The position numbers and the translations under genes were made by a program. A model generated the notes under the pieces. It saw nothing but the letters and a program-made list of their open reading frames with translations, was not told the origin of the DNA and made no database searches. Shown here piece after piece: positions 1,653 through 50,223 of a DNA stretch of 64,000 bases (the stretch's first letter is position 1; every line of letters starts with the position of its first letter). Source of the DNA: a virus; the IMG/VR virus record IMGVR_UViG_3300035670_000085, positions 35,897 to 99,896 of that record; one strand, written 5' to 3'.

Positions 1653-1654
1653 AT

Positions 1655-1798: not shown

Positions 1799-1805
1799 GT
1801 GGTTA

Positions 1806-1999: not shown

Positions 2000-2004
2000 T
2001 TTTT

Positions 2005-2020: not shown

Positions 2021-2037
2021 TAGAATAGTTTTATAAT

Positions 2038-3150: not shown

Positions 3151-3188
3151 GGACGATTGCCTATTTTAGATAATTAGTTATATTACAT

Positions 3189-3665: not shown

Positions 3666-3668
3666 AAA

Positions 3669-3953
3669 ATGAAACGTTATAAATCATTATTAGAAGATGA
3701 TAAAAATAAACGATTTGCTTTACTTCTTTCTGATATGAAACATAGTCGTGGTTCATTTAAATATTTTGATACTGAAAAAGAAGCAGTTGATTTTGTTAAG
3801 AAACTACACAGCCAAAATAAACTTATGAGATATGTAGAAATAGAATTGCTTGATAGAAGTATTAAAGATTATCAAAGTCCTAAATATAGTAGAGTATTGT
3901 GGGATGGATTACATAATGAATTATATGTTAGAGGATATTTGGAGAGAATATAA
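3669..3953 (+). CDS. MKRYK-tagged protein (putative packaged internal protein)
   Basis: 94 residues. It begins MKRYKSLLED, the first copy in the window of a peptide that opens 27 otherwise unrelated proteins. The tag is basic, then hydrophobic, then ends in Glu, like the T4 capsid-targeting sequence (MKTYQEFIAE) cut after (L/I)-x-E. The body (residues 15-94) contains a segment with GSFKYFDTEKEAVDFVKKL, common in small nucleic-acid- or substrate-binding folds, but no function can be assigned. Confidence 0.8.
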   Translation: MKRYKSLLEDDKNKRFALLLSDMKHSRGSFKYFDTEKEAVDFVKKLHSQNKLMRYVEIELLDRSIKDYQSPKYSRVLWDGLHNELYVRGYLERI

Positions 3954-3972
3954 TAAATAAGAGGTTATCGTC

Positions 3973-4113
3973 ATGGGTAAAAATCCTTCAGAAGCAAATA
4001 AAAAAGAAACTCCTAAATGGAAAACAACTATAGTTATTTCTCATTATATAAAACCTAATGGGGCATGGGGAAAAAGAACTACAGAAATACGTGAAGAGGT
4101 TATTAAAAAATGA
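3973..4113 (+). CDS. 46-residue basic protein
   Basis: ATG 3973 is preceded by GAGGT; the stop overlaps the next gene as ATGA. The protein is Lys-rich (MGKNPSEANKKETPKW start) and has no MKRYK tag, one of the few untagged members of this array. Unrecognised. Confidence 0.6.
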   Translation: MGKNPSEANKKETPKWKTTIVISHYIKPNGAWGKRTTEIREEVIKK

Positions 4114-4613
4114 GACGATATAAACCGCTGTTTGAAAAAGTTGATTTAGAAAAAAAAGATTATCATGTTAGAGAATGGGATGAAGATTCTCGTGATACAT
4201 GGGAATATCTTCTTTCTAAATATGAAAACTGGGATCAAGCTAATAAAGATGGTATGGGAAGTCTTTATAATACTTTAGAAAAAAGTTTTATAAGTAATGG
4301 TGATGTTGCAAAGGAATTACTAAAATCTAATAGACAAAATAAAAATTATTTAAATGTTGGTGATGTTCTTTATTTTAAATATATAAACGCTTCAATAATG
4401 GGAAGAAATCCTTTGGATAATAAAGGTATAAAAGAGTTTAAAAAAAATGCATATGTAATTGTGACAGAAGTGAATTTAGAATCTAAAGTTTATGGGTTTA
4501 ATAAAAGCAATAAAAACAAAACAATATTAGGAAATACTTTTTATTATAAAATAAGCGATATAAATGAGTTATTAGAAAAACGAGAAGGAAAATCAATAGA
4601 AGTAATTTATTAA
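4110..4613 (+). CDS. MKRYK-tagged protein
   Basis: 167 residues; tag variant MRRYKPLFEK with LFE as the possible cleavage site. The body is charged and mostly helical to ~85, then a beta-rich part (residues ~90-160) with YLNVGDVLYFKYI, an SH3- or KOW-like look. Starts by ATGA overlap. No known family. Confidence 0.8.
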   Translation: MRRYKPLFEKVDLEKKDYHVREWDEDSRDTWEYLLSKYENWDQANKDGMGSLYNTLEKSFISNGDVAKELLKSNRQNKNYLNVGDVLYFKYINASIMGRNPLDNKGIKEFKKNAYVIVTEVNLESKVYGFNKSNKNKTILGNTFYYKISDINELLEKREGKSIEVIY

Positions 4614-8981: not shown

Positions 8982-9335
8982 ATGATATGTGAACTAATTT
9001 CTTTCAGTGCAGCAGAACTCAATACAGGAATAGATGTTATAAAAGATATAGAATTTATTTCTATAGTTAAAAATGATGCAGAAGCGCTTCCAAAAGTATA
9101 TAGACCAATTGAGATACGCTTTTCAAATGTAAGCGGTATTGCAGCAAATATTGATATTTTTTCTGATATCGAACATGCTGCTTATCTAACAACTCCAACT
9201 TTATCTGATAAAATAACTATAGCTAATGGCGGTACATTGACATTAACCCCAACTAAAGATGCTATTACTAAAATAGTTGCTAAAGGTACAGCAGGACATT
9301 CTGGAAATTTAAATATTACAATAATAAAAGAGTAG
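8982..9335 (+). CDS. beta-sandwich protein, untagged
   Basis: 117 residues, almost all beta-strand pattern, no tag. It is a diverged paralogue of the gene at 11010 (shared layout: N-terminal strand, IxIxxxN.S..., FSDxEH/EY...TPT(L/I)(S/T)D, final TI/EIxKE). It could be a capsid decoration or small fibre protein, judged only from fold impression and late expression. Confidence 0.7.
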   Translation: MICELISFSAAELNTGIDVIKDIEFISIVKNDAEALPKVYRPIEIRFSNVSGIAANIDIFSDIEHAAYLTTPTLSDKITIANGGTLTLTPTKDAITKIVAKGTAGHSGNLNITIIKE

Positions 9336-10963: not shown

Positions 10964-11009
10964 CACGACAATCCAATCAGATTTGATATATCCGACTGAG
11001 AGAGTAATT

Positions 11010-11357
11010 ATGATAACTGAAAAAATTGCAATAGTTAACGCAGACCTCGTAGCGGGAAAAGCGGTTAAAACAATAGAAGATATATCTTTAACTAGATTAG
11101 ATGCACAAGCTTCATCGAAACAATATATTCCTATCAAAATAAAATGTACTAATAACACTAATGTTTCTGGCAATTTTATTGCATTTTCTGATATGGAATA
11201 TATACAATATATAGCAACACCAACAATTACTGATTTAGTTCCTTTAGCAATCGGTGAATCGTTTGAATATATTCCAACAAATCAAAAAATGACAACTATT
11301 GTGGTCGAGTCTGCTGTTTTTACTGGAACCTATGATATAGAAATTTGGAAAGAATAA
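11010..11357 (+). CDS. beta-sandwich protein, paralogue of the 8982 gene
   Basis: 115 residues from ATG 11010 (GAGAGAG upstream). All-beta pattern, untagged. Its first codons (MITEKIAIVN) recur at 11610, where a different short protein starts MIIEKIAIVS, showing a partial local duplication. Possible small virion surface protein; no proof. Confidence 0.7.
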   Translation: MITEKIAIVNADLVAGKAVKTIEDISLTRLDAQASSKQYIPIKIKCTNNTNVSGNFIAFSDMEYIQYIATPTITDLVPLAIGESFEYIPTNQKMTTIVVESAVFTGTYDIEIWKE

Positions 11358-25782: not shown

Positions 25783-26228
25783 TCGACCTCCTTAATATAT
25801 TTAACTTTATTTTTAATAAAAATTTCAATAGCAGTTTGATAAGTATTTTCTCCCAAAATATGAAAAATTAAATTAAGATACATATCAGCATATTCTATAC
25901 CATGGGGAGCAATATCTCTATCAAAATAAATTCTATCACAAATTCCATGTGCTATTTCATGTAAAATTGTTGCTTGATTTTTAGACCATTTAGGAAGTTT
26001 CATAGCTATTGTATAATTATCTTCCAACCACCCATATGCTACATTTCCTTTACTGCAATAAACATGAATGTGTTTTATATTGAATTTTTTAAACCATTTA
26101 TTAGCAAGAATTTCATTAAGAAAAATTTGTATTTCCGATAAATTTTTATAAAATTTCAATTCAGATTTATATTTCCGTCTGAATTGCCTATCAGAGTCAT
26201 ATATTTTTTGTCTTTGAAAGTCTCTCAT
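25779..26228 (-). CDS. small metallopeptidase (SprT/TIGR04338-like)
   Basis: 149 residues. ATILHEIAHGICDRI with HExxH at ~90-94, then APHGIEYADMYLNL at ~107-120 supplying the third His, as in the HExxH...HG.xF family of small putative metallohydrolases. The N-terminal half has a beta hairpin (IHVYCSKGNVAYGWLEDNYTI) that would carry substrate. Coupled by ATGA overlaps to the neighbours. Target unknown. Confidence 0.8.
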   Translation of the reverse strand: MRDFQRQKIYDSDRQFRRKYKSELKFYKNLSEIQIFLNEILANKWFKKFNIKHIHVYCSKGNVAYGWLEDNYTIAMKLPKWSKNQATILHEIAHGICDRIYFDRDIAPHGIEYADMYLNLIFHILGENTYQTAIEIFIKNKVKYIKEVE

Positions 26229-26527
26229 ATTTTATATAATTCATTTAATCTTTTTAAATATGAAGTTGCTCCTGTATCTCCACTTGTATACCATTCTAAT
26301 TCTTTAGCTCTAATAGCTAATTGTCTCAAATCAACAATAAATCTCTTCACTTCATCAAGAATAATTTCTCGTTCCTCATCTGTAGCATCTGATAACAAAT
26401 CATATTTATGATCTGTATCATTCCCATACTTTTCACATATTACTCCATCATTAATAAAATCTCTTTCAATTTCATCTGCAAGATATTCTAAATATCTATA
26501 TTGATATTGATAGTGTCCACCACTCAT
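26225..26527 (-). CDS. MSGGHYQYQY-family protein
   Basis: 100 residues beginning MSGGHYQYQYRYLEYLADEI, a start found in a widespread family of small phage proteins of unknown function. A close paralogue lies at 28408-28887, with DATDEEREIILDEVK(R/S) shared. Helical; Glu-rich. Confidence 0.8.
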   Translation of the reverse strand: MSGGHYQYQYRYLEYLADEIERDFINDGVICEKYGNDTDHKYDLLSDATDEEREIILDEVKRFIVDLRQLAIRAKELEWYTSGDTGATSYLKRLNELYKI

Positions 26528-28199: not shown

Positions 28200-28411
28200 A
28201 TACTTTTACACTCCATTTTAGTAGATTTAAATTGTACACTTTTATAACCAAAATCTTCAGTAAAGGGCATACAATGATACCTTTTGAACTCCCCATCAAA
28301 ATACTCTTTAAAAATGTATTTAGTCGGGACTCGATGTTGAAGATAATAATTATATCCATTAATACCTAAACTAAAAGCAGAAATTAGTGATAATATTATT
28401 AATTTGTTCAT
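28196..28411 (-). CDS. small exported or anchored protein
   Basis: 71 residues. MNKLIILSLISAFSLGINGY is a signal peptide or signal anchor; the rest is beta-rich with two Cys (YHCMPF and MECKS). Unknown. Confidence 0.65.
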   Translation of the reverse strand: MNKLIILSLISAFSLGINGYNYYLQHRVPTKYIFKEYFDGEFKRYHCMPFTEDFGYKSVQFKSTKMECKSI

Positions 28412-28887
28412 ATTTTTTTATTCTCAAATTTCTTCTTTTTTTGATATTGTGAAAAATTATCCGCTGTACAATCCATACATCTTTGAGAAATCAAATCTTC
28501 CCCAGTATAAGAGGTACAATTTTCACAATTTTTTCTATAGGTTGCATTTCCATCCAGTATACGGGCTATTAATCTCTGTTGTTCTTGTATAAAAAGAAAC
28601 CCCTTTTCTCTTAATATTTCAATATAAGAAGTTGACCCATAGTCCCCAGATGTTAGCCACTCAAGTGCTTTTGCACGTTCTGCACAATTCTTTAAATCAA
28701 CAATAAGACTTTTCACTTCATCTAAAATAATTTCTCGTTCTTCATCTGTAGCATCAGAAAGATAGTCATATGTTCTGTTTTCGCCAAAATCACTTTTCAC
28801 AACCCCATCATTAAGAAAATCACGTTCAATCTCGTCTGCAAGACACTCTAAATATCTATATTGGTATTGATAATGTCCACCGCTCAT
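28408..28887 (-). CDS. MSGGHYQYQY-family protein with Cys tail
   Basis: 159 residues. The first ~100 residues parallel the 26225-26527 gene (MSGGHYQYQYRYLECLADEI; SDATDEEREIILDEVK). A ~50-residue extension carries CENCTSY and CMDCTADN, a CxxC...CxxC site like that of the KVYCxxC family. This looks like a duplication followed by fusion to a resident Cys module. Confidence 0.8.
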   Translation of the reverse strand: MSGGHYQYQYRYLECLADEIERDFLNDGVVKSDFGENRTYDYLSDATDEEREIILDEVKSLIVDLKNCAERAKALEWLTSGDYGSTSYIEILREKGFLFIQEQQRLIARILDGNATYRKNCENCTSYTGEDLISQRCMDCTADNFSQYQKKKKFENKKI

Positions 28888-37500: not shown

Positions 37501-37911
37501 GTGGAAGCACTCCTTACTAACCCCCTATATTTACAATATTTGAGTGAGTATCAAAAGAAATATAAAAATTTTCTTTGTGATAGTACTGCGCAAATAGGAG
37601 ATATTGTATATATACATCCTACCGAAAATAATAAAGTAATTGTTAATATTGATAATTGTAATGATAATCCTTCAGTTGGAATTATTGTTAAAAAAATTTC
37701 TATAACTGAAGCAAAAGTACAGCTTTGTGGAGAATGTTCTTTATTGTTCTCTGGACTTCAAAAATCTAAAAATGTTTTTCTTGGACTGGATGGAAAGTTA
37801 ACAAATGCCGTTCCAAATACTGGTTTTATTCAAAAAATTGGAATATCTCTAGAAGATCAAAAGGTCTTCTTAAATATTGATTACATGAGGATAAAAAGGA
37901 ATCCTTTTTAA
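37501..37911 (+). CDS. appendage/decoration protein, cassette copy 1 gene A
   Basis: 136 residues from GTG 37501 (an in-frame stop directly precedes it). Its C-terminal ~90 residues match the gene at 43758: SVGIIVKKISITEAKV...LFSGLQKSKNVFL..DGKLTNAVP..G.IQKIGI. Beta-rich, of the kind found in head-decoration and fibre-base domains. The N-termini of the two copies differ. Confidence 0.7.
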   Translation: MEALLTNPLYLQYLSEYQKKYKNFLCDSTAQIGDIVYIHPTENNKVIVNIDNCNDNPSVGIIVKKISITEAKVQLCGECSLLFSGLQKSKNVFLGLDGKLTNAVPNTGFIQKIGISLEDQKVFLNIDYMRIKRNPF

Positions 37912-37918
37912 AAAAAAT

Positions 37919-37934
37919 TATACTAATAATTGTA
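37919..37934 (+). promoter_or_regulatory. late-promoter-like motif variant
   Basis: TATACTAATAATTGTA, nine bases before the ATG at 37943; the second half deviates from the consensus. Confidence 0.55.
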
Positions 37935-37942
37935 GGTAGTTT

Positions 37943-38179
37943 ATGGAAAACAAAATTAAAAACAAAAATAAAACTAAGGATTTGTGGTTTTATGCTTTTT
38001 TGAGAATACGTGGCTATGAATTGTCAGATTATGTAAAGCATGAAGATACAAATAAATCTGAATTTATTTTTAATATTACTAATGATGAATGGAAACAATT
38101 AAAGCTTGATTTTAATAAATCCGATTTATCAAAAGGAAAGTGGTTTATCGAAGAAGCAAAAGATTTAATTTTTGGATAG
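37943..38179 (+). CDS. DUF5659-like small protein
   Basis: 78 residues. TKDLWFYAFLRIRGYELSDY...SEFIFNITNDEWKQLKLDF follows the pattern of the phage DUF5659 family (tKDlyxAaFLxxxGxxL...xFxF). Unknown role. It is present only in copy 1 of the cassette. Confidence 0.65.
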   Translation: MENKIKNKNKTKDLWFYAFLRIRGYELSDYVKHEDTNKSEFIFNITNDEWKQLKLDFNKSDLSKGKWFIEEAKDLIFG

Positions 38180-38192
38180 GGTGGTCAAAGTT

Positions 38193-38627
38193 ATGGACGA
38201 TATTCAAAAACCTCAAAAACGTAAAAAGCAAAAACTGTTTTCTGAACCAACTACAATAAACAATAATGATTTAACTATAGAAGAGAATTCTTCTAAAATT
38301 TTATTAGAAAAAGAGGCATTAAAACTTGAAAATTATATGTTAACTATTGCAAACAAAAAAATGCAATCAGATAATATTTTAATGCAAATAACTAATAAAA
38401 AATTAATTCTTGAAAATGCAGAATTAAAAGAACAAATAGAAAAATTTAAGCTTGATAAAATTAAAAATGATATTCAGTTTTTAGAAGCTCAAAAAGAAAA
38501 CAACCAAAAACAAGTTAGTTCTGTAATGAAAGATTATGATAGTTACAAAAAAATGTTAGAAGATAAATACACGTTAGCGGGAAAATGGGGATTTAATCCC
38601 GAAACATTCGAAATTATGGTTGATTGA
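38193..38627 (+). CDS. coiled-coil protein, cassette copy 1 gene B
   Basis: 144 residues from ATG 38193. A basic start, long coiled coil (~35-120), and the end KWGFNPETFEIMVD, matching RWGFDPRSGEIKI of the 44190 gene. A short coiled coil before fibres suggests a trimerising or chaperone function. Confidence 0.7.
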   Translation: MDDIQKPQKRKKQKLFSEPTTINNNDLTIEENSSKILLEKEALKLENYMLTIANKKMQSDNILMQITNKKLILENAELKEQIEKFKLDKIKNDIQFLEAQKENNQKQVSSVMKDYDSYKKMLEDKYTLAGKWGFNPETFEIMVD

Positions 38628-38638
38628 GGTAAATTTTT

Positions 38639-40153
38639 ATGAGTATTAAAAAATTCTTATTCGTTGATTCGGATAGTTTTTATTCTGAATCGTCTGGAGC
38701 ATATGAAACTTCTGATTATATCAGCGGTACTGCTGGTGCGGGAGATGCAAATAAGCCTATTAAAACAAATCCTTCTGGTTTGTTAGATGCTACCTTTTTG
38801 CCATCTGTTGTAGTGAGGACAGATCAAGATTCAACTCTTGCTTCTGGAGTAACTATTGCTGTTAATCCGGCAACTACTTTTACAGCTAATGATCTTATTT
38901 CTAAATCTTATGCAGATGCTATTGCTGCTGGTTTTGGTCCTAAACGTTCTGTAAGAATAGCTACTGATGCAAACATAGACACATTTGTTTATGATAATGG
39001 GACTGATGGTGTTGGTGCAACATTAACAGCTCCTACAAATAATAGTTCTTATAACACTATGCAGTCAGTTTTATTGTCTGTTGGTGATAGGGTTTTAGTT
39101 AAAGACCAAACAGATACGTTTGAAAATGGTATTTACGCTGTAAGTGCATTGGGTAATGATTCTGACACATCTTTTACTTTGACAAGAGCAATTGACTTTG
39201 ATAATAATCCAGATGGAGAAATTCGTCCTGGTGATTATACTTTCGTCATTGAAGGTACAAAAGCCGATCTCGGTTTTGTTCAGATAGATTTTACAACTAG
39301 TGATGTTGTTGGAACAGATCCTATCACTTTTACTGAATTTATGTCTCCGACTGTTTATGTTGCTGGCGACGGTATTGATATTGCCGGAACAACTATATCA
39401 GTAGATGTAACTGATTTTATTGATACCACGTATGGATTAACAGAAAGTTCAAATGATATTCGAGTTAATCTTGATTCTGCTGGTGGTCTTGGTTTTGATT
39501 CTATAAATTATGGTATTGAAGTAGTACCGGATGTAACAACTGGGGCAACTGTTGCTCCTGTGACTGTTGGAGCAAATGGAGTTGGTGTAACTGTAGATAA
39601 TAGTACTATTGGCCATACTTCTGGAACTTTGGGAGTTAAAGCTGATGGTATAAACGACACTCATATCAATTGGGGTACTGGTGCTAATCAAGTATCTGCA
39701 GTTGATGTTCCAATCGCTGATGCCGGCGGGTATACTACTCAAACTGAAGTTGAAGGAGCATTACAAGAAATTTATGGAATGTTGGCTGAAAGTGGTGCTG
39801 AAACTTTTACTGTTGGTGCTGGTGGAGTTACCAAAGGTGATTTAGTTTATGTAAGTGCAAATGATACTGTAAATAAACTTGATATAGATGATTCAGAATA
39901 TGGTATTGGTTTAGCAATGGCAACTATTGGAGCAGGTAGTTCAGTGAAAGTTGTTCAAGATGATACTATTCTTGAAGGAGTTCTTACTGGAGCTATAGCA
40001 GGAGCTAAATATTACTGGTCATGGGATGGTTCAACTGGTGGTATAACTGCAACAGCACCCACTGCATCCGGTAAATCTGTATGGCAAATTGGTATAGCTA
40101 AAAATGCAACAGATTTGTATGTAGAAATAAGATTCATAACAAAACGGTCTTAA
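38639..40153 (+). CDS. tail fibre/appendage protein, cassette copy 1 gene C
   Basis: 504 residues, beta-rich and poor in Cys. The N-terminal ~230 residues are ~85% identical to the 44611 gene (for example TFTANDLISK(S/A)YAD(A/S)IAAGFGPKRSV), with DNA that differs mainly at synonymous sites. The middle is diverged, and the end (VWQIGIAKNATDLYVEIRF) is again alike. Typical trimeric fibre composition. A terminator follows at 40164. Confidence 0.8.
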   Translation: MSIKKFLFVDSDSFYSESSGAYETSDYISGTAGAGDANKPIKTNPSGLLDATFLPSVVVRTDQDSTLASGVTIAVNPATTFTANDLISKSYADAIAAGFGPKRSVRIATDANIDTFVYDNGTDGVGATLTAPTNNSSYNTMQSVLLSVGDRVLVKDQTDTFENGIYAVSALGNDSDTSFTLTRAIDFDNNPDGEIRPGDYTFVIEGTKADLGFVQIDFTTSDVVGTDPITFTEFMSPTVYVAGDGIDIAGTTISVDVTDFIDTTYGLTESSNDIRVNLDSAGGLGFDSINYGIEVVPDVTTGATVAPVTVGANGVGVTVDNSTIGHTSGTLGVKADGINDTHINWGTGANQVSAVDVPIADAGGYTTQTEVEGALQEIYGMLAESGAETFTVGAGGVTKGDLVYVSANDTVNKLDIDDSEYGIGLAMATIGAGSSVKVVQDDTILEGVLTGAIAGAKYYWSWDGSTGGITATAPTASGKSVWQIGIAKNATDLYVEIRFITKRS

Positions 40154-40163
40154 TATTAAATAA

Positions 40164-40199
40164 ACAGGGGAGGAACTCCACTCCTCTGTTTTGTAATTT
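40164..40199 (+). terminator. rho-independent terminator
   Basis: ACAGGGGAG/CTCCTCTGT (40164-40172 with 40181-40189, one G-T pair) then TTTTGTAATTTTT. Same place in the cassette as the terminator at 46248. Confidence 0.8.
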
Positions 40200-40201
40200 T
40201 T

Positions 40202-40714
40202 ATGGATAATGTAAAACCATTAAAGTTGGAAACTTCTATCGATGGATCTCAAAATGATGAGTTTCAAACAGAAGTCAATTCATTAGAAGATTATATTACT
40301 GCTAAAGGTTTTTCATTTGAAAATTTAAAAACCCATTATATTGATTTAAAAGATAATGAAATAGCCTTTACGGATATAGTGAATGGAACTCTAAAAATTT
40401 CTGAAATAATGGGCGGTGGTGGTTTAACTGCTAATTCTCATAAAGCACTCGATCAGTTAGTTCATAATATATCAGAAACATGTTATGTAGAAATAAATAG
40501 AACCAATAATAAAATAAATTCTGTAATTTATTGGGATTCTATTTCTAAATTAAAAAAAATAAGAGAGGAATTAATAACATATTCATCAAATTTTATTTCT
40601 GAAGTCGTTACGAAACAATATGACAGTTCTGGTAGTCTTTCAGAAACCTTAACTGATACATATAATAGAGATGTTAATAATTTTGTTACGTCAATCACAT
40701 CTGTATTATCATGA
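40202..40714 (+). CDS. fibre-attachment protein, cassette copy 1 gene D
   Basis: 170 residues. Residues 1-75 resemble those of the 1308-residue fibre at 46297: VKPLKLE...EDYITAKGFSFENLK...IAFTDIVNGTLKISE against VRVFKLE...EDYIAVKGISFENLE...IQFKDTVNGTIKLSE. The rest is unrelated and helical. This is a short fibre with the same base-binding N-terminus as the long one. Confidence 0.75.
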   Translation: MDNVKPLKLETSIDGSQNDEFQTEVNSLEDYITAKGFSFENLKTHYIDLKDNEIAFTDIVNGTLKISEIMGGGGLTANSHKALDQLVHNISETCYVEINRTNNKINSVIYWDSISKLKKIREELITYSSNFISEVVTKQYDSSGSLSETLTDTYNRDVNNFVTSITSVLS

Positions 40715-40724
40715 GGTATTTATT

Positions 40725-41396
40725 ATGTTTTTTAAATGGATAAATCAAAAACTTGCAGAAAAATTTAAAAAAGAGACTAAACCATCTGCTCATAGAGAAA
40801 TGACTTTAGAATCCTATCAAAGATTTCAATCTAATGGTGAAGGAATTTATTATTGCAATGTAAAAGGAAAATCAAATACAATAACTGCTAAACTTATAGA
40901 ATTTTTTGCTCATAAATTAACACATAGTTTTGCTGTTCTTTTTTCAAATGATTTAAGGAGTTGGTTCACTGACGAACAATGGAAAAAATTATGTGATAGA
41001 TGGAATTATCATTATGGTGTCACAACTGGTATTCCTTCAACAGTAAAAGCATTAATTTTAGGTTCTGCAGATCAAGATGGTATAAATATAATGGATTATT
41101 CTGCATATCAAAGTAGAGAACATTCTATTAGAAAAGCACCATTAAATTCAATACAAATTAAAAAACTTCTTGAGTTTGTATGTCAAGATAAGATATTAAA
41201 TGCTAATTATGATTATGTTGGTCTTGCATTACATTTAATTTCTAGGAAATTGCAAGATAAAACTGCATGGTATTGTTCTGAGTTGGTATATGATTCTTTT
41301 ATGGCAATAGGAGTTAAAACTGCAAAAAAACCATATCCTACTCCATATGAGCTCGAATGCTATAATAAAGAATGGATAATTTGGAGTAATCTTTAG
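40725..41396 (+). CDS. papain-like (NlpC/P60, YiiX-type) peptidase
   Basis: About 223 residues from ATG 40725 (GAGGT upstream). Permuted papain-like fold: a candidate catalytic His in KLTHSFAVLF (~60-68), YDYVGLALHLI (~165), and Cys in AWYCSELVYDSF (~185-196). Such enzymes hydrolyse amide or thioester bonds in peptidoglycan or lipid-linked groups. Lying among fibre genes, it may locally open the cell wall or process a virion protein. No tag. Confidence 0.75.
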   Translation: MFFKWINQKLAEKFKKETKPSAHREMTLESYQRFQSNGEGIYYCNVKGKSNTITAKLIEFFAHKLTHSFAVLFSNDLRSWFTDEQWKKLCDRWNYHYGVTTGIPSTVKALILGSADQDGINIMDYSAYQSREHSIRKAPLNSIQIKKLLEFVCQDKILNANYDYVGLALHLISRKLQDKTAWYCSELVYDSFMAIGVKTAKKPYPTPYELECYNKEWIIWSNL

Positions 41397-41448
41397 TTTA
41401 TAAAGATTATGAAAATTTTAAATAGATTTTAATAAGGGATTAAAAAAG

Positions 41449-41464
41449 TATACTAATAAATATA
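41449..41464 (+). promoter_or_regulatory. late-promoter-like motif
   Basis: Exact TATACTAATAAATATA upstream of the acidic tagged gene at 41487. Confidence 0.8.
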
Positions 41465-41486
41465 TTTAATTTTAATGAGGCAAAGT

Positions 41487-41900
41487 ATGAAGAGATACAA
41501 AAGACTTTTTGAACAAGAAGATATGGTTGTTAAACCAGAAGAAGAAATTAACGAACCAGAAATGGATTTAAAACAACAAACACAAGATGCAGTTATTGAA
41601 AATCCAATGGTTGAAGAAGATGATGAAGAAATTAATTTCGAAGATGAGAATGAAGAAGAATTTAATTTTGAAGAAGAAGACGAAACCCTTCCAGAAATAG
41701 AAGATGATGAAGAGGAATTCAATTTTGAAGAAGAAGACGATGATGAAATTCTTCCTGAATTAGAAGATGAAGAAGAATTTAATCTTGAAGAAGAAGATTC
41801 TGAATTTCCAATCATTAATTTTGAAGAGGAAGATGATGATGAAATTCTTCCTGAATTAGAAGATGAAGATGAAATTCAAGAACCAGAAATAGTACAATAA
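41487..41900 (+). CDS. highly acidic MKRYK-tagged repeat protein
   Basis: 137 residues from ATG 41487 (TGAGG upstream). Tag MKRYKRLFEQE, then about half Asp/Glu arranged in imperfect repeats of EEEFNFEEED and DDEILPELEDE (four or so between residues 45 and 130). If packaged it might act as DNA mimic or internal head counter-ion, like T4 internal proteins or Ocr in effect; it also resembles the acidic part of the scaffold. Role is inference. Confidence 0.75.
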   Translation: MKRYKRLFEQEDMVVKPEEEINEPEMDLKQQTQDAVIENPMVEEDDEEINFEDENEEEFNFEEEDETLPEIEDDEEEFNFEEEDDDEILPELEDEEEFNLEEEDSEFPIINFEEEDDDEILPELEDEDEIQEPEIVQ

Positions 41901-41913
41901 TTTAAGGTAATAA

Positions 41914-43068
41914 ATGTCATTTAATATAGTAGAAGGAATTGTCCGTGTTTCTGATGATAACGGCAATTTAGTAACTTCACAAGATAATGGTTCTCAAAGA
42001 GCATTAGATATTGGAGTTACTGTAGAGGGTAATCAAATTGACCCAAGACAAATTAGACAAATAACTACTTCTGATGAAATAACTGTACAGCAAGGAGGTA
42101 TCTGGGATATTAATAATATTTCGGGTACTGTCTCTTTACCTACTGGAGCTTCTACAGCAGCTAATCAGATAACAACTAATAGTAAGCTTGACACATTACA
42201 CATAGATATAACCACAACACAGCCAAGAAAATTACAGGATGGTTCTGGTAATGTTATAACTTCTCAAATATCTGGTTCTCAACGTGCTCTGGATATTGGA
42301 GTTAATGTTGGTGGCGTTCAAGTTGATCCAAGACAAATTAGAGCTTTAATTTCTTCAGATATTATAACTGCAAATCAAGGGGGAGTTTGGAACATCACTA
42401 ATATTTCTGGAGAAGTTTCTTTGCCTACTGGTGCAGCCACTTCCGCCAATCAATTAACTACTCATGCTAAATTAGACACAGTTAATTCTAATTTAACAAC
42501 TATTGATTCCGACATTAAAGCTTCTCAACCTCGTAAATTACAAGATGGAAATGGCAACATAGTAACTTCTACGATTGTTGGATCAACACGATCATTAGAT
42601 GTTAATATTTCTGCCTCTGCTGATTCTGGAGTATGGATTCGAGATGGAATAAATGCTTCATTTAAAGCAAAAGTTGACGGTTCTGGAAATCTATATATGG
42701 TTACTCCAACACCAGAAGCTCCAGCAGGGAAAACATCAATAGTAGATACAAAACAAGGGGATGTAACCGGTACTTCCGATAGTTTTACAATAATACCTTC
42801 TGGATTTGCAATTACAATACAAAGATTAAAAGCCGGTTCTGAAGTAGATACTGTTGCAGGAAGTAAAGTTGAACTACATTATGCTCCTAATGGAACTACT
42901 GTTGGAACTATTCTTATTGATGCGGTATATGTAAACGGAGATAGTGACCATTCTGATTTAAATTATATAACTGAAATTGGAAATGGCACTAAAGCTATTT
43001 TACTTCGTAGACAAAGATTAGGCGGTGGCGCAGTAGAAATATTCGGTAAATGGGAAGGATACTATTAA
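41914..43068 (+). CDS. virion protein with internal repeats
   Basis: 384 residues, three repeats of ~90 residues: (R)KLQDGxGNxxTSxxxGSxRxLDIxV...VDPRQIR...ITxxQGGxWxIxNISGxVSLPTGAxTxANQ(I/L)TT. The C-terminal ~150 residues form a beta-rich domain (GFAITIQRLKAGSEVDT). Known in phages as collar/fibre-type proteins; function unproven. The short 50238 gene echoes its GGIW motif. Confidence 0.75.
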   Translation: MSFNIVEGIVRVSDDNGNLVTSQDNGSQRALDIGVTVEGNQIDPRQIRQITTSDEITVQQGGIWDINNISGTVSLPTGASTAANQITTNSKLDTLHIDITTTQPRKLQDGSGNVITSQISGSQRALDIGVNVGGVQVDPRQIRALISSDIITANQGGVWNITNISGEVSLPTGAATSANQLTTHAKLDTVNSNLTTIDSDIKASQPRKLQDGNGNIVTSTIVGSTRSLDVNISASADSGVWIRDGINASFKAKVDGSGNLYMVTPTPEAPAGKTSIVDTKQGDVTGTSDSFTIIPSGFAITIQRLKAGSEVDTVAGSKVELHYAPNGTTVGTILIDAVYVNGDSDHSDLNYITEIGNGTKAILLRRQRLGGGAVEIFGKWEGYY

Positions 43069-43749
43069 ATGAAATTATCATATTCGTCAATAATATCAAC
43101 AGTTACTTCTAAAAATTTAAGACTACAATATACAACAATACCAAGTGGTGGTTATTATATATATGCATGGGATGGATCACAATATTATGATAGTACAATA
43201 ATTGATTCGTCAGATATAACAAATTTTGAAACAAATTATAAATCTTCTTGCAATAAAAAAATTAATCCTATAGAGACGGGCACTGGTTGGTTAAAAGTTA
43301 GACCCAGAAAAGCGTCTGGGGACATTCAATTAAAATATATTTATTTTACTTCTGCAACATCTAATAATTTTGATGATGCTGGAGATTCTGATTATACAAT
43401 TTCTATAAATGAGGCTCATACTAAAACAATTATAGATTTTATGCCTGATTATGATTATGAACTTGCTGGAGGAAGATTAAGAGCTCTTTCTTCTTCTATA
43501 GCTAATAACACAATATCATTAAATTTCATAATGGCTCCGGATATACCAGAAGCATATAGTGGTAACTATTACATTATCACAAATAAACATATAGATGACG
43601 ATGAAAAATTTTTTGTAATGAATGAAGAACCTAAATGTATGTTATATGACCCTTTAGTTCCGCAAGCATCAAAAGTGAGGTTAGAAATCAATCATTCTGT
43701 CGATGAGCAGATTTCGTTTGAGTATAATTTAAAAATATATAGGATTTAG
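43069..43749 (+). CDS. virion-type unknown protein
   Basis: 226 residues starting at the stop of the previous gene. Beta-rich (SGGYYIYAWDGSQYYDS..., IQLKYIYFTS). Late, and next to fibre genes, so probably structural. No family recognised. Confidence 0.65.
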   Translation: MKLSYSSIISTVTSKNLRLQYTTIPSGGYYIYAWDGSQYYDSTIIDSSDITNFETNYKSSCNKKINPIETGTGWLKVRPRKASGDIQLKYIYFTSATSNNFDDAGDSDYTISINEAHTKTIIDFMPDYDYELAGGRLRALSSSIANNTISLNFIMAPDIPEAYSGNYYIITNKHIDDDEKFFVMNEEPKCMLYDPLVPQASKVRLEINHSVDEQISFEYNLKIYRI

Positions 43750-43757
43750 TTAATAGA

Positions 43758-44180
43758 ATGAGTACTGTAATACTAACTCGTTCTGTAAATGCTGGAAGAA
43801 CGATCCATGTTAATGATGAAGAATCATTAAGAATTGTTAGAGAATTTGATTGTGATAGTAGTACGTTAGTAGGTCAACCTGTTATTTTATCTTCAACTGA
43901 AATAAATAAAGTAATTGTACCAAATAATAATTTTGATGTTATGCCTATTTTTGGCATAGTTGAATCAAAAATAACAGCAACAACCTGTAAAGTTATCACT
44001 CATGGATATAGTGACGTTACGTTTACTGGACTAGTTAAAAATAAAAATATTTTTTTATCTTCGGATGGGGCATTAACTACAGATGTTCCATTAAGTGGTT
44101 ATATGCAGATATTAGGTATTGCATATGAAGATAATAAAATGTATGTTAATATTGGTTTACAGATTACGTTAATGGGATAA
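43758..44180 (+). CDS. appendage/decoration protein, cassette copy 2 gene A
   Basis: 140 residues. Homologous over the C-terminal two-thirds to the 37501 gene (MPIFGIVESKITATTCKV...FTGLVKNKNIFLSSDGALTTDVPLSGYMQILGIAYEDNKMYVNI). Beta-rich. The order of the following three genes matches copy 1. Confidence 0.75.
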   Translation: MSTVILTRSVNAGRTIHVNDEESLRIVREFDCDSSTLVGQPVILSSTEINKVIVPNNNFDVMPIFGIVESKITATTCKVITHGYSDVTFTGLVKNKNIFLSSDGALTTDVPLSGYMQILGIAYEDNKMYVNIGLQITLMG

Positions 44181-44189
44181 GGTATTTAT

Positions 44190-44600
44190 ATGGGCAGAAA
44201 AAAAGTAATAAAAGTTGAAGCAGAAATGGTCAAAATTGATTCTCTCAAACTCTTAAAAGAAGAGTTATTAGAGTTGAAATTGGATAAAGCGGAAACAAGA
44301 GAAAAAGAATTAGAAATGGAATTGAAAAAGAAAGACTATTCAATTAAAGCACTTGAATTAAAAATTATGGATTTGCAAAATAAATTGCAAAGAATAGAAG
44401 AAGAAAAAAAGATTCAAGAAATGAAAGCGGTATTAGTCTCAATTGATAATGAAGTTGCTAATTTAAAAAAACATGTAGAAGATAAATATAAAGAACATAT
44501 TCCATTAATGAAAAAAATAGCTGAAAATCATAATATAGGAGAAGATGTTAGGTGGGGTTTTGATCCCCGTAGTGGTGAAATTAAAATAATAGATAAATAA
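44190..44600 (+). CDS. coiled-coil protein, cassette copy 2 gene B
   Basis: 136 residues, basic start, continuous coiled coil (~25-110), end RWGFDPRSGEIKI as in the 38193 gene. GGTAT upstream of the ATG. Confidence 0.7.
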   Translation: MGRKKVIKVEAEMVKIDSLKLLKEELLELKLDKAETREKELEMELKKKDYSIKALELKIMDLQNKLQRIEEEKKIQEMKAVLVSIDNEVANLKKHVEDKYKEHIPLMKKIAENHNIGEDVRWGFDPRSGEIKIIDK

Positions 44601-44610
44601 GAGGTATTAT

Positions 44611-46233
44611 ATGGCTACAAGTCAAAAATATATAATTGTAAATACAACTACTGGCCGGTATGAAGTTGAAAATACTTATGCGGCTGCTGATTTATTTGCA
44701 AAAGATGAATACATAAGTGGTACATCGGGAGCAGGAGATGCCGATAAACCGATTAAAACCAACGTGTCTGGATTATTGGATTCTACTTTTCTTCCTTCAG
44801 TAGTAGTAAGAACAGACCAAGATTCAACATTAGCTTCAGGTGTAACTATTGCCGTTGATGCAGCAACAACATTTACTGCTAATGATTTGATTTCTAAAGC
44901 ATATGCTGATTCTATAGCAGCAGGATTTGGTCCTAAAAGATCTGTAACATTAGCCACCGATGCTAATATTGATACATTCGTATACGATAATGGTACTTCT
45001 GGTGTTGGTGCTACATTAACAGCTCCAACAAACAATAGTTCCTATAATACAATGCAGACAGTATTATTAGTTGTTGGAGATCGTGTTTTGGTTAAAGATC
45101 AAACAGATACATTTGAAAATGGTATCTATGCAGTTAGCGCACTTGGTAATGATTCGGATACATCATTTACGTTAACACGTTCTGATGATTTTGATAATAA
45201 TCCCGATGGAGAAATTAGACCAGGCGATTATACATTTGCAGTATCTGGAACAAATGCAAATAGAGGGTATTATCAAGTTGATTTTACAACTGGAGATGCA
45301 GTTGGTACTGATCCTATTACTTTCTCAGAATTTATGGCACCGGCAGTATATACCGCTGGAGATGGTATCGATATAGCTGCTAATTCTATATCTGTAGATG
45401 TTACTGATATAATTGATACAAATTATGGTTTGACTGAAAATGCTAATGATATTAGAATTAATCTTGAATCCGACGGTGGTTTACAATTCGATGCGTCTAA
45501 TAAAGGAATAGAAATTAAATCAGATTCTATAACTGCTAATACAATTGCTATTACAACTACTGCAAATGGAGCTGGAGTAAAATATGATAACACTAAAGGT
45601 TTAGGGGAAACATCTGAAACATTAGAAGTTAAATTAAATCCTGCTGGAGCATTAGAATTTGATGTTACTTCTGGAACTATTGGAGTAAATGTTGATAATA
45701 GTTCAATTGAAATTAATGGTTCAAATGAAATTCAAGTAAAAGCAGACGGTATTAAAGATACTATGATAGATTGGGGAATAGGAGCAAGTCAAGTATCTGC
45801 TGCTGATATGCCAATAGCTGATACTGGTGACGTATTTACAGCAACTGATGTTGAAGCTGCTTTGCTTGAACTCTATAATGGTATTGGTTCTACAACTTAT
45901 ACAACCGACGGTACTGGAGTAACTGCAGGAGATGTTGTATATATTTCAGCAAATAATATTGTATCAAAATGGTCAGATATCACATCAAATCAGTACATAG
46001 TTGGTATTGCTGCTGAAACAAAAGGTGCTGGTGTAGCAGTTAGAGTATTGTGGTCTGGAGAAATTATTACTGGAATTCTTACTGGAGCAACTGCTGGAAA
46101 CGAATACTACTGGAGTGGTTCAGCTTGGGTAACAACATTTCCTTCAACAGCCGGGGGATATGTTTATCAAGTTGGTGTTGCTAAAAATGCTACTGATGCG
46201 GTAGTTCAAATCGAGTTTATAGTTCAAAACTAA
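44611..46233 (+). CDS. tail fibre/appendage protein, cassette copy 2 gene C
   Basis: 540 residues. N-terminal ~235 residues closely match copy 1 gene C, including DRVLVKDQTDTFENGIYAV; about 35 residues longer in the middle. C-terminal ~120 residues share GAGVAVRVLW/GAGSSVKVVQ and VYQVGVAKNATDAVVQI. Terminator at 46248. Confidence 0.8.
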   Translation: MATSQKYIIVNTTTGRYEVENTYAAADLFAKDEYISGTSGAGDADKPIKTNVSGLLDSTFLPSVVVRTDQDSTLASGVTIAVDAATTFTANDLISKAYADSIAAGFGPKRSVTLATDANIDTFVYDNGTSGVGATLTAPTNNSSYNTMQTVLLVVGDRVLVKDQTDTFENGIYAVSALGNDSDTSFTLTRSDDFDNNPDGEIRPGDYTFAVSGTNANRGYYQVDFTTGDAVGTDPITFSEFMAPAVYTAGDGIDIAANSISVDVTDIIDTNYGLTENANDIRINLESDGGLQFDASNKGIEIKSDSITANTIAITTTANGAGVKYDNTKGLGETSETLEVKLNPAGALEFDVTSGTIGVNVDNSSIEINGSNEIQVKADGIKDTMIDWGIGASQVSAADMPIADTGDVFTATDVEAALLELYNGIGSTTYTTDGTGVTAGDVVYISANNIVSKWSDITSNQYIVGIAAETKGAGVAVRVLWSGEIITGILTGATAGNEYYWSGSAWVTTFPSTAGGYVYQVGVAKNATDAVVQIEFIVQN

Positions 46234-46247
46234 TAAATAAATACTAA

Positions 46248-46282
46248 TTAGTGGAGGAGATTAATCTCCTCCACTAATTTTT
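46248..46282 (+). terminator. terminator (perfect palindrome)
   Basis: A 30-base perfect palindrome centred on ATTAAT (46248-46277) followed by TTTTTG; it separates gene C from gene D of copy 2. Confidence 0.85.
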
Positions 46283-46296
46283 GTATATGGTATTAT

Positions 46297-49200
46297 ATGG
46301 ATAGAGTTAGAGTATTTAAGTTAGAAAATCCTACCAATGGAACTGAAAATAATCGTAGACAACAATTATTAGATTTTAATGAAGATTATATTGCTGTAAA
46401 AGGTATATCTTTTGAAAATCTTGAATCAAGTTCTATCGATATAGTTAGTGGAACCTCTGGAACAGATATTCAATTTAAAGATACCGTAAATGGTACAATT
46501 AAATTATCAGAATTAGTAGATCGGGGATTTTCAACTTATACAACTACATCTTCTGCTGAAACTGCTACTGGATCAGATAATGATTTATGTTATGTTGTGG
46601 AAACTGAAACATTCTATCGATATGAAGCAACTGGGTCTTCTTATACCGATGATAATAAATGGGTTCTCTCTACTGGAAATGGCGGAACTACTCGATGGAT
46701 TGGAATAGCAGGTAAATATATTTACACTACTTCAAATGCTTTTTATGGTTTTAAATCTGCTATTTCTAATAGTTCTGGATTATATAATACCTCATTTGGA
46801 ATGAATAGTTTATATACTAATTCAACAGGAAGTTCAAATGTGGCGATTGGTCATAATGCATTATATGCAAACAATGATGATCAAAATACTGCAATTGGTA
46901 AAAGTGCAGGATCTCAAGCAACGAGCGGATATAATACATTTATAGGAGCTGGAAGTGCATATAATGTAACTTCTGGGGGGAATAATGTTGCTATAGGGTA
47001 TTCCGCACTTTATGGAGCAATATCCCCTACATTTGCTACAGGAACAAATAATGTAGCTATTGGATATGAATCTGCAAAATCAGTATCTACTGCTTCTCGA
47101 TTAGTATTTGCGGGATATCGTTCTGGATATACAAATACAACTGGAGCAGATAATATTTTTATTGGTTCAAGTTCTGGATATTCAAATAGTACTGGTGGTA
47201 ATATTATTGCTATTGGAACAAGTGCTCTATATTCTAATACCACTGGAAGTAATATAGCAATTGGTTATCAGGCTGGTTATTCAAATACTTCAGCAACATC
47301 AATAACATATATAGGACATCAAGCCGGTCAATATGCTACTGGTAATAGTAATATAGCGTTAGGTTTTCAAGCATATAAAGGAGTTAACGGACAAACAACT
47401 GGAACAAATAATACAACTATAGGCGCTAATGCTTTTTATGGTTTAACTTCTGGATCATACGGAATTGCTATAGGTTCTTCAGCTGGTTATACACTAACAA
47501 CCGGAACAGACAATATCGCTATAGGTTATAGAGCAGGATATTTAAATAGCACTGGAAATTATCAAATAGCTATTGGTACGGATGCACTTTATAATACTAC
47601 GTCATCAAACAACACAGCGGTGGGGTATAAAGCTGGAGAGTCAAACACCTCTGGTGGTTCGCATGTATTGATTGGTTACGAAGCTGGAAGATATTCTACT
47701 GGATCTTTATCCAATACTTATGTTGGAGATAGAGCTGGTAAGGGTGCAGCTGGAACGAACTCTGGATATTATAATACTGGTTTTGGCGGCGGAGCATTAC
47801 AATTAATAACTTCTGGCCATGATAATATGGCTATTGGGCAACAATCTTTGCAACAGTGTAGTTCGGGAAGTTATAATACCGCAGTTGGAACTAATTCTGG
47901 TATTTTTACTGGAACAGGAAGCTATAATACTTATATAGGGAACGCAACTGGACAGAATGTAACAAATTGTAGTAATAATATTTTCATTGGTGCAAGTTCC
48001 GGAGCTAGTTTTTATGGAACTTCTCAAACATTAGCATATAATATTGCAATTGGTCTTGGATCTTCGTCTTCATTAGTATCTAGTTCATATAATATTACAC
48101 TTGGTGCTAATACAGGATTAATCAATAATTATAATAATTATAATATACTTATTGGTCATGATGCTGGTAATAGTGTTCAGTCAGATAATAACGTTGCTAT
48201 TGGTTATCGCACATTAGGTTATAAAGGTACTTCAGCGGCTCAAGAGAGAAGTAGAGTTATAACTGTAGCTGATGTATCTGGTTCATTGGACGGAAAATAT
48301 TTTATTCTTTATTCTACAACTACCACATATTGGGTATGGTATGATGTTAATAATGGTTCAACTCCACCGAGTCCGTCTAGCGGAGAAACTTTAGTTGAAG
48401 TTGATATTAGTACTAATGCAACTGCAGCGACAGTAGCAACAAATACTAAAACGGCAATTAATGCAATTAGTGGAACACCCTTTTTAGCTTTTATAGAAGC
48501 GAGCGGGACAAATTATCTGGGTATTGTTTGCAAATTAGCAGGAAATAATACTAACACTACTGATGGGGCCGCACCAACTGGATTTACAATATCAACAGTA
48601 ATTGCTGGAGCAGGTACTTCAACAACTGGAGCAGATAATACTGCCATTGGTTATAAATCACTCTATAATTTAAGTTCTGGATATGGAAATGTAACTGGAG
48701 GATATCAAGCTGGCGATACAATCACGACTGGCTATAATAATATTATTTTTGGTTATGACGCTGATGTAAATGCAACTGTTTATAATACAATTGTTCTAGG
48801 TGCAAATGCATCAAGTACAGTAAATAATCAAATACTTATAGGAAATTCATCCCATACGACAGCTATTATAAAAGGAATTTATGGTAATGAAAACGGAGTA
48901 AATCCTTATGTAAGGGTGGGATCAGATGGGACATTATATGAAGATAATAATCCACCAACTGGAGGAAGTGGAGTAACCACATACACAACGGTTACAGCAG
49001 CAGAAGCAGCATCAGGCTCAGACAATGATATATGTTATGTAGTTGAAACTGAAACTTTCTATCGTTATGAATCTAGTGGATCATCATATACGGATGATAA
49101 CAAGTGGATTTTAAGCACTGGGGATGGAGGAGATACACGATGGATTGGGGTTAGTGGTAAATACACATACACAACAGATAATTTATTTTATGGTTTAGGT

Positions 49201-50223
49201 TCATTAAAAAGTATAGTTTATGGAGATAGAAATATTGCAATAGGAAATAACGCCCTATCTGTAAATGATGGTGATTATAATGTTGGTATTGGTCGAAAAT
49301 CTTTATATAGCAACACATCCGGTTATGAAAATATAGCAATTGGAGATTATGCATTATACTCTAACGTATCGGGTTATGATAATACTGCTATAGGAGTTAA
49401 TGCCGGAAATTATCTTACAGGAGACAATAATACATTGCTTGGTGCATATGTATATAATAATTGTACATCTGGAAATAACAATACTGCTATCGGCTATCAG
49501 GCAATGTTTGGGGGAGGTGGGAGTACAGTTAATAATAGTATAGCTATTGGTTTCAATTCATTATATAATATCCAATCTGGAACAAATATTGCTATTGGAA
49601 ATTTCGCAGGATATACCCTTCAAGCGGGACAATATAATGTCATGTTTGGAAATTACGCTAATTATTCTAATCCCAATGGCGGATATAATGTTGCTATTGG
49701 ATACAATGCTTTATATCTCAATATTACCAACAATAACGTAGCAGTAGGTTATCAAGCTGGTAATTCAATTACCTCTGGCTCTTCTAACGTTATTATCGGT
49801 TATGATGCTGACCTTGCATCTAACACTAATTCAAACTCTATTGTAATAGGATCTGGAGCTACTTCAACTGCGAATAATCAAACATTTATAGGAAACGCAT
49901 CAACCACCTCAACAATCATTAAGGGTATTTATGGCAATCAAAATGGTTCTAATCCTTATGTGAGGGTTGGCTCTGACGGTACTTTATACGAAGACAATAA
50001 TGCTCCTTCTGGTGGGGTTAATATTTTAGAAGAAATTTTTACAGCTACTGCATCACAAACAGATTTTGTATTAACTAATTCTCCAACAGATGAAAATGGT
50101 GTCTGGGTATTTATCGATGCGGCATATTCAGCAACAGATCAATATAGCATATCTACTAATACTTTATCATTGAGCTCTGGTTTAGTTGGTGGAGAAAAAG
50201 TAGTTATTAAATATATATACTAA
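46297..50223 (+). CDS. long tail fibre with YadA-like head repeats, cassette copy 2 gene D
   Basis: 1308 residues. The N-terminus (1-75) is shared with the 40202 gene. Then come dozens of repeats of the form GxxNxAIGYxAGxxxTTGxxN, the left-handed beta-roll repeat of YadA-type trimeric adhesins, which bind surfaces. Two modules follow each other: each begins with SGSDND(L/I)CYVVETETFYRYE (~85 and ~905) and ends with IIKGIYGN(E/Q)NGxNPYVRVGSDG. A ~140-residue globular domain (VITVADVSGSLDGKYFILYS) interrupts the first module at ~650-790. The last ~65 residues (ILEEIFTATASQTDFVL) form a cap. Host-binding fibre. Confidence 0.85.
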   Translation: MDRVRVFKLENPTNGTENNRRQQLLDFNEDYIAVKGISFENLESSSIDIVSGTSGTDIQFKDTVNGTIKLSELVDRGFSTYTTTSSAETATGSDNDLCYVVETETFYRYEATGSSYTDDNKWVLSTGNGGTTRWIGIAGKYIYTTSNAFYGFKSAISNSSGLYNTSFGMNSLYTNSTGSSNVAIGHNALYANNDDQNTAIGKSAGSQATSGYNTFIGAGSAYNVTSGGNNVAIGYSALYGAISPTFATGTNNVAIGYESAKSVSTASRLVFAGYRSGYTNTTGADNIFIGSSSGYSNSTGGNIIAIGTSALYSNTTGSNIAIGYQAGYSNTSATSITYIGHQAGQYATGNSNIALGFQAYKGVNGQTTGTNNTTIGANAFYGLTSGSYGIAIGSSAGYTLTTGTDNIAIGYRAGYLNSTGNYQIAIGTDALYNTTSSNNTAVGYKAGESNTSGGSHVLIGYEAGRYSTGSLSNTYVGDRAGKGAAGTNSGYYNTGFGGGALQLITSGHDNMAIGQQSLQQCSSGSYNTAVGTNSGIFTGTGSYNTYIGNATGQNVTNCSNNIFIGASSGASFYGTSQTLAYNIAIGLGSSSSLVSSSYNITLGANTGLINNYNNYNILIGHDAGNSVQSDNNVAIGYRTLGYKGTSAAQERSRVITVADVSGSLDGKYFILYSTTTTYWVWYDVNNGSTPPSPSSGETLVEVDISTNATAATVATNTKTAINAISGTPFLAFIEASGTNYLGIVCKLAGNNTNTTDGAAPTGFTISTVIAGAGTSTTGADNTAIGYKSLYNLSSGYGNVTGGYQAGDTITTGYNNIIFGYDADVNATVYNTIVLGANASSTVNNQILIGNSSHTTAIIKGIYGNENGVNPYVRVGSDGTLYEDNNPPTGGSGVTTYTTVTAAEAASGSDNDICYVVETETFYRYESSGSSYTDDNKWILSTGDGGDTRWIGVSGKYTYTTDNLFYGLGSLKSIVYGDRNIAIGNNALSVNDGDYNVGIGRKSLYSNTSGYENIAIGDYALYSNVSGYDNTAIGVNAGNYLTGDNNTLLGAYVYNNCTSGNNNTAIGYQAMFGGGGSTVNNSIAIGFNSLYNIQSGTNIAIGNFAGYTLQAGQYNVMFGNYANYSNPNGGYNVAIGYNALYLNITNNNVAVGYQAGNSITSGSSNVIIGYDADLASNTNSNSIVIGSGATSTANNQTFIGNASTTSTIIKGIYGNQNGSNPYVRVGSDGTLYEDNNAPSGGVNILEEIFTATASQTDFVLTNSPTDENGVWVFIDAAYSATDQYSISTNTLSLSSGLVGGEKVVIKYIY
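46520..46746 (+). repeat. intragenic module start, copy 1
   Basis: Encodes TGSDNDLCYVVETETFYRYE...WIGIAGKYIYTTSNAFYGF; pairs with the copy at 48977-49200. Protein similarity is high but the DNA is well diverged. Confidence 0.75.
48977..49200 (+). repeat. intragenic module start, copy 2
   Basis: Encodes SGSDNDICYVVETETFYRYE...WIGVSGKYTYTTDNLFYGL, second copy of the module in the long fibre. Confidence 0.75.

Follow-up and report, generated by a model that had tools for sequence, protein, structure and literature searches.

In the present work, we analysed a 64,000-nucleotide stretch of virus DNA (positions 35,897 to 99,896 of the IMG/VR record IMGVR_UViG_3300035670_000085; hereafter, the window), in which a cassette of four genes is found twice in the same order. 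Each cassette, A (37501-40714) and B (43758-50223), probably encodes a thin, polymeric fibre of the bead-on-a-string type in which, by analogy with the neck fibre of Anabaena phage A-1(L), gene 1 would form the base, gene 3 the repeating shaft and gene 4 the tip. This proposal is based on the remote homology of genes 1 and 3 to gp82 and gp81 of A-1(L) and on gene 4 occupying the position of gp80. The complete record of 99,896 bases belongs to a contractile-tailed phage with 284 open reading frames (ORFs), and its terminase gene at 34077 was recognised by a weak match to phrog_2. The cassettes, each with a hairpin between genes 3 and 4, consist of the following features, for which the E-values obtained with profiles that were built without the window (leave-window-out profiles) are given in brackets; aa stands for amino acids.

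37501..37911, + strand: A1, gene 1 of cassette A, putative base-side bead with a predicted decoration/cement fold (4.7e-28)
38172..38627, + strand: A2, gene 2, small charged protein with the end WGFNPETFEI (1.4e-6)
38639..40153, + strand: A3, gene 3, putative repeating shaft subunit
40162..40191, + strand: hairpin followed by a run of T, between genes 3 and 4 of cassette A
40202..40714, + strand: A4, gene 4 (170 aa), putative tip with a conserved N-terminal motif and a short variable part (2.8e-21)
43758..44180, + strand: B1, gene 1 of cassette B (1.7e-31); matches phrog_30025 (6.9e-4) and phrog_4368
44190..44600, + strand: B2, gene 2 of cassette B (5.5e-7)
44611..46233, + strand: B3, gene 3 of cassette B (540 aa)
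46246..46279, + strand: hairpin followed by a run of T, between genes 3 and 4 of cassette B
46297..50223, + strand: B4, gene 4 of cassette B (1308 aa), gene-4 N-terminal motif and a long putative tip in which a unit with many AIG repeats occurs twice

Homology of the cassettes to the A-1(L) neck fibre

A sequence-only reading of this DNA had described the four genes in the same order twice, and this was borne out: the ORFs and both hairpins were located where it had placed them, and the matches between the copies were significant for all four genes. BLASTP showed 42% identity over 111 aa for gene 1 (E 7e-27), 28% over 83 aa for gene 2 (E 3e-4), 61% overall for gene 3 and 43% across the first 74 aa for gene 4 (E 2e-15). 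Although weak, the match between the gene-2 copies is genuine: a profile built from 27 other loci found A2 and B2 and no other ORF of the record. The A2 ORF is listed here from a TTG at 38172, and its previously used start at 38193 is an in-frame ATG within the same ORF. A coiled coil had been assigned to gene 2, but its heptad score was not above that of shuffled sequences (287 of 300 shuffles scored as high for A2 and 122 of 300 for B2). The leave-window-out profiles matched A1-A4 and B1-B4 in order, which places both cassettes in one four-gene family, and among the 284 ORFs their sole extra matches were those of gene 1 and gene 3 to each other's beads. No third copy was found in the record using these profiles or an all-against-all comparison of the ORFs.

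The comparison of the gene-1 profile with all PDB chains gave one good match, residues 122-240 of 8keg_a, 'neck fiber gp82N' (E 5.8e-8), which correspond to gp82C by the numbering of PMC10966104; A1 is thus homologous to the C-terminal bead of gp82. The profile of the gene-3 bead matched gp81 of A-1(L) (2.8e-21) and gp32 of Flavobacterium phage 11b (1.6e-30). In A3, an N-terminal hairpin (aa ~28-57) is followed by middle domains and a C-terminal bead (aa ~385-503), and the N-terminal hairpin motif of the gene-3 subfamily of the window matched gp81 residues 20-49 (4.8e-10), with none of 300 shuffles scoring as high. The same link was obtained independently of our own profiles through the PHROG families: A1 (6.9e-7) and B1 match phrog_4368, which gp81 matches at 3.9e-22, and B1 matches phrog_30025, which gp82 matches at 3.6e-158. 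Moreover, the beads of genes 1 and 3 form one family (hhalign 99.7%, 8e-26).

According to the main text of PMC10966104, the purified recombinant gp82-gp81-gp80 complex of A-1(L) forms bead chains, and there are ~14 gp81 trimers per gp82 and gp80 trimer. The gp82 protein serves as the neck anchor and carries a bead at its end, gp80 caps the chain, and the N-terminal hairpins of gp81 contact gp82C in the authors' model. By analogy, the cassette would work in a similar manner. Gene 1 would supply the first bead on the virion side, and the gene 3 product would be repeated many times, its N-terminal hairpin docking in the bead of the preceding unit (gene 1 or gene 3) and its C-terminal bead receiving the next one. 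Gene 4 would close the chain by docking with its N-terminal 60-70 residues, the rest being free to vary, and gene 2 is probably an assembly helper. The hairpin and the run of T after gene 3 would let part of the transcription reach gene 4 and thereby provide many shafts per tip. The phage would then carry two kinds of fibre that differ in the tip, which is short in A and long and repeat-rich in B.

The hairpin between genes 3 and 4 and the tips

The RNA z-scores of the hairpins were -4.2 in cassette A and -6.4 in cassette B, and none of 200 shuffles was as stable in either case. Among gaps of 30-120 nucleotides (nt), a stem of at least eight pairs was present in 18 of the 21 that follow gene 3 compared with 17 of 77 other same-strand gaps (Fisher p 1.5e-7, a value that overstates independence because the loci are mutually related). 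Two of the 21, in L031 and L039 (L-numbers denote IMG/VR loci or contigs), lead to another ORF ahead of gene 4, and those with no such stem were L031, L045 and L054, the last of which has only a perfect stem of six pairs. Out of sample, a stem was counted, without shuffles, in all five gaps of the contigs that were found via gene 3, mostly with a run of T. Similar hairpins were observed in the gp81-gp80 gap of A-1(L) (z -7.4, 0 of 200 shuffles), in YongM (z -3.6) and in Xanthomonas phage X1 (z -3.5). The words stem-loop, transcription and stoichiometry are absent from the main text of PMC10966104. The simplest reading of this recurrent element is that of a partial terminator or a 3'-end stabiliser that separates the gene of an abundant shaft from that of a rare tip, and perhaps it sets the ratio of the two. 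A recurring RNA hairpin that may be tied to the subunit ratio such a fibre needs is the new element here.

The lengths of gene 4 are 170 and 1308 aa, as had been noted, and this contrast had been read as two receptor systems on a shared base, with gene 4 as the fibre base. The homology and the shared order with gp82-gp81-gp80 instead place gene 1 at the base side and gene 4 distally; the gene that was called a base is thus probably the tip and, if so, the difference in length would mean two tips and not one base with two receptor arms. For the A-1(L) tip, the main text of PMC10966104 reports that no binding to the host was seen. A4 has ~100 residues past the conserved motif. B4 comprises two units, which match each other locally (48% over 305 columns and 62% over 114), and it contains 24 AIG/FIG motifs, often 16-17 residues apart, as well as the motif IIKGIYGN...YVRVGSDGTLYEDNN, which is present twice. 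Its PHROG relatives are labelled tail spike or virion structural proteins, and no Pfam family was found for its 1308 aa at E 1. PDB matches of B4 below 0.01 were confined to triosephosphate isomerase; they were weak and were taken as spurious. A long gene 4 of 922 aa was also found in L056, and in phage X1 a fibre of 1371 aa follows the gene-3 homologue. It is conceivable, although we consider it unlikely, that in this unnamed and widespread operon the hairpin acts as a stoichiometry switch and that the conserved docking half of the shaft lets the two systems mix, which would lead to a combinatorial display of tips on the virion.

The cassette in other phages and alternative appendages

Using a profile of the gene-4 N-terminus, 31 loci were found in viral contigs (IMG/VR), three of which (L029, L041 and L045) represent contigs already included in the profile seed as L028, L027 and L021. 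A gene-4 ORF was present in 30 of them, the exception being L050 with a match near the contig end. Upstream of this ORF, gene 3 was found in all 30 loci and gene 1 in 29 (L049 is cut), and the gene-2 profile matched in 20 of the 31. Whole-record searches showed exactly one gene 4 in each of the 31 records, none of which is rated as at least 90% complete, so that a second copy may lie beyond a contig. In order to avoid the bias of the gene-4 start, a second search was started from gene 3; it yielded 28 loci, 11 of them on contigs that were new to the analysis. Gene 4 was present downstream in six of the new contigs, L085 ends inside gene 3, L081 continues for 690 bases past gene 3 without a gene-4 match, and L086, L087 and L088 are built otherwise. 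Genes 1 and 2 were present in all seven new contigs that extend far enough upstream from a cassette-type gene 3. Judging from these searches, the four-gene cassette is widespread as a module among uncultured phages, usually in a single copy. Additionally, a stretch of gene 3 (aa ~240-333) recurs at 51-68% identity in many otherwise unrelated viral contigs (L004-L012) and resembles a shaft repeat that moves independently.

In single-sequence tblastn searches of 50,697 phage records, no match was obtained for B1, the B4 N-terminus, the gene-4 consensus or gene 4 of L048, and eight records were matched by gene 3 of L029 through its bead. Searching the viral contigs with the gene-1 alignment found nothing, and when bacterial and archaeal genomes were scanned twice, using the gene-4 and gene-3 profiles, no relative was confirmed among the 20 and 59 pattern matches. 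In the open-access papers listed by the literature searches, no title or abstract opening described the four-gene family.

Several observations weigh against the proposed bead-chain fibre. Only ~20-25 residues precede the bead in A1 and B1, and a neck anchor of the gp82N type (gp82 residues 1-125) is absent. Gene-4 profiles showed no detectable sequence homology to gp80, and it is from its position that gene 4 is called the tip. A docking motif common to genes 3 and 4 was sought and not found (hhalign 9.7%), no A-1(L) counterpart of gene 2 was found by profile, and the middle of A3 was poorly modelled (mean predicted local distance difference test score, pLDDT, 58). The hairpin was absent from 14 of the 32 cassettes examined, i.e., from the three named above and from 11 whose gaps are shorter than 30 or longer than 120 nt, ten of these with genes 3 and 4 abutting, and terminator-like elements may serve purely as 3'-end stabilisers. 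Because the neck anchor is missing and gene 4 is not homologous to gp80, we do not class the cassette as an A-1(L) neck fibre.

The predicted structures keep a different location of the fibre in play. The B1 bead was modelled with pLDDT >90, and the model shows the phage capsid cement fold (HFTV1 8qsy: Z 9.6, root-mean-square deviation 3.3, 108 aligned; Adjutor 8saj: Z 9.0; base of phi29 gp8.5: Z 4.7), as does that of the C-terminal bead of A3 (HFTV1: Z 10.3, root-mean-square deviation 3.3, 110 aligned). In the viral library, the second and third ranks were taken by two unnamed entries of 241 and 168 residues, lengths that equal those of gp82 and 11b gp32. The fold agrees with the earlier description of gene 1 as decoration-like. 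The fibres could be head fibres, in which gene 1 would be a cement trimer like lambda gpD or the phi29 gp8.5 base and genes 3 and 4 would project from the capsid and not from the neck. The lack of a gp82-type neck anchor is in line with such an arrangement, as are the cassettes directly after or near the major capsid gene in L028, L030, L035 and L048. We nevertheless regard it as rather doubtful; among the sequence relatives whose place in the virion is known, the closest are neck-fibre proteins, and both cassettes of the window are located between the terminase and tail-collar genes with no recognised capsid gene adjoining.

It is quite improbable that the cassettes specify ordinary tail fibres, such as a contractile-tailed phage might assemble from common fibre domains, and that their order is only a habit of the gene neighbourhood. 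The PHROG matches of gene 3 and B4 do include tail fibre and tail spike families, and a tail sheath gene (57561) and the tail-collar genes lie downstream. However, the order with genes 1 and 3 was kept in 29 of the 30 loci with an assigned gene 4 and also in the contigs found from gene 3, and the homology spans both ends of gp81.

Age and origin of the two copies and relation to known systems

The copies had been described as old and kept by selection, and the analysis of nonsynonymous (dN) and synonymous (dS) change showed that this was even an understatement. Across the 495 aligned codons of gene 3, dN was 0.28 and dS 1.17, and in the sliced comparison between aa 41 and 200 the protein identity was 90-95% with dN of 0.06-0.08 and dS of ~0.7-1.7. 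Fourfold sites agreed at 42 of 91 positions in aa 20-235 and at 41 of 82 beyond, while 42.5% is predicted by the base composition. As this identity is close to the expectation, synonymous change in gene 3 is saturated, which confirms that the pair is old and under purifying selection. A recent gene conversion of gene 3 was rejected since the fourfold sites are 46% alike compared with the 42.5% expected from composition.

For genes 1, 2, the 5' and 3' parts of gene 3 (3N and 3C) and the gene-4 N-terminus (4N), the identities were 41, 23, 74, 47 and 45% between A and B, 43, 25, 37, 41 and 44% between A and L045 (= L021), and 38, 40, 33, 46 and 46% between B and L045. Beyond the 5' half of gene 3, A and B are thus about as distant from each other as either is from L021, and a specific link of A to B is confined to this half (74% overall, at least 90% in its core). 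The amount by which 3N exceeds 3C in identity was larger in A-B than in the 19 other pairs compared, and since L045 differs in 3N, strong constraint on that half alone fails to explain it. An old exchange between the copies, which is compatible with the saturation of silent sites, or a shared recent ancestry of the 3N half only would explain this excess.

On the earlier expectation that a separate closest relative of each copy would speak for independent gain, the trees were divided. In the concatenated tree (genes 1, 2, 3C and 4N; 418 columns), B grouped with L045 with support of 90/69; A+B was not rejected by the approximately unbiased (AU) test (p 0.32), nor was A+L045 (p 0.125). Among the single-gene trees, gene 3C joined B with L045 (96/80; A+B AU p 0.385), gene 4 joined A with B (94/86), and A+B had an AU p of 0.49 in the gene 1 tree. 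The extra gene of cassette A and the genes downstream of this cassette are listed below.

37943..38179, + strand: extra 78-aa gene of cassette A, between A1 and A2; homologues at the same spot between genes 1 and 2 in L032 and L052, no equivalent in cassette B
40719..41396, + strand: permuted papain-like (C92/YiiX-like) peptidase gene (Pfam PF05708, 0.0032, below the curated cut-off)
41914..43068, + strand: downstream neighbour gene g41914; the L049 homologue adjoins gene 4
43069..43749, + strand: downstream neighbour gene g43069; homologues directly ahead of the C92 gene in L049 and L053

The genes downstream of A (the C92-like peptidase, g41914 and g43069) are those that are found downstream of gene 4 in other loci, with homologues of the peptidase in 14 of the 31 (three of them seeds), and cassette B sits after these three genes and ahead of the tail-collar genes. 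As A lies among the usual downstream genes of the module, it is likely that A is the resident copy and that B is the additional one. In the nearest terminase relative, L013 (67% identical; positions 1162-4523 of a 4.6-kb contig), there is no cassette between the terminase and the g50238 homologue, and this interval is ~1 kb compared with ~14 kb in the phage studied here.

The cassettes may also have been gained twice, independently, from other phages of one subfamily, the 5' half of gene 3 being shared later by recombination within the lineage, a scenario that we hold to be credible and only somewhat below even. The similar three-way distances outside 3N, B2 being nearer to L021 (40%) than to A2 (23%), and the best tree are all consistent with it. 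Moreover, related cassettes occur in phages with quite different structural genes, which suggests that cassettes move. On the other hand, A+B was not rejected for the concatenated genes, gene 3C or gene 1, the gene 4 tree joins the two copies, and for the 5' half of gene 3 nothing else found comes nearly as close to either copy as A and B do to each other. A phage with two such cassettes offers a natural example of how fibres of two types would share parts or keep them apart.

Other repeated sequences were observed in the window. A very acidic protein is encoded at 41475-41900 with tandem repeats whose periods are ~30, 57 and 96 bases. The minus-strand ORFs 26225-26527 and 28408-28887 are 71% alike over 96 aa and represent a second duplication in another gene family, and the ORFs 8982-9335 and 10983-11357 are 38% alike over 117 aa.

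Among the known systems, the capsid cement proteins (lambda gpD, HFTV1 and Pam3) and the phi29 gp8.5 head-fibre base have the fold that is predicted for the beads of genes 1 and 3. The B1 and A3 bead models fall within this class by their fold, with the capsid as a candidate location; identity in the structural alignments is mostly 7-20%, and in the window two different genes of one fibre operon encode the bead. In Flavobacterium phage 11b (gp31-gp33; AJ842011), gp32 is a gene-3 homologue at both ends and gp31 weakly matches gene 1, but these are annotated as hypothetical proteins and neither gene 2 nor the gene-4 motif was found there. In Xanthomonas phage X1 (OQ427096, 180153-186770), proteins resembling those of genes 1 and 3 precede a hairpin and the 1371-aa fibre gene, which is called a tail fibre there and in which the gene-4 motif was not detected. 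The gp82-gp81-gp80 operon of A-1(L) (main text of PMC10966104; PDB 8keg) differs from the window, which has the extra gene 2, a much longer gene 3 and two cassettes, lacks the 125-residue neck anchor and has a gene 4 that agrees with gp80 in position alone. Both systems share the order of base bead, repeating bead and third protein, a base protein with a C-terminal bead, a repeating subunit with a homologous N-terminal hairpin and a homologous bead, and a DNA hairpin between the second and third of these genes. In these searches, A-1(L) was the only, and distant, relative that has been studied structurally, and it provides a likely structure and polarity for an appendage operon that many uncultured phages carry.

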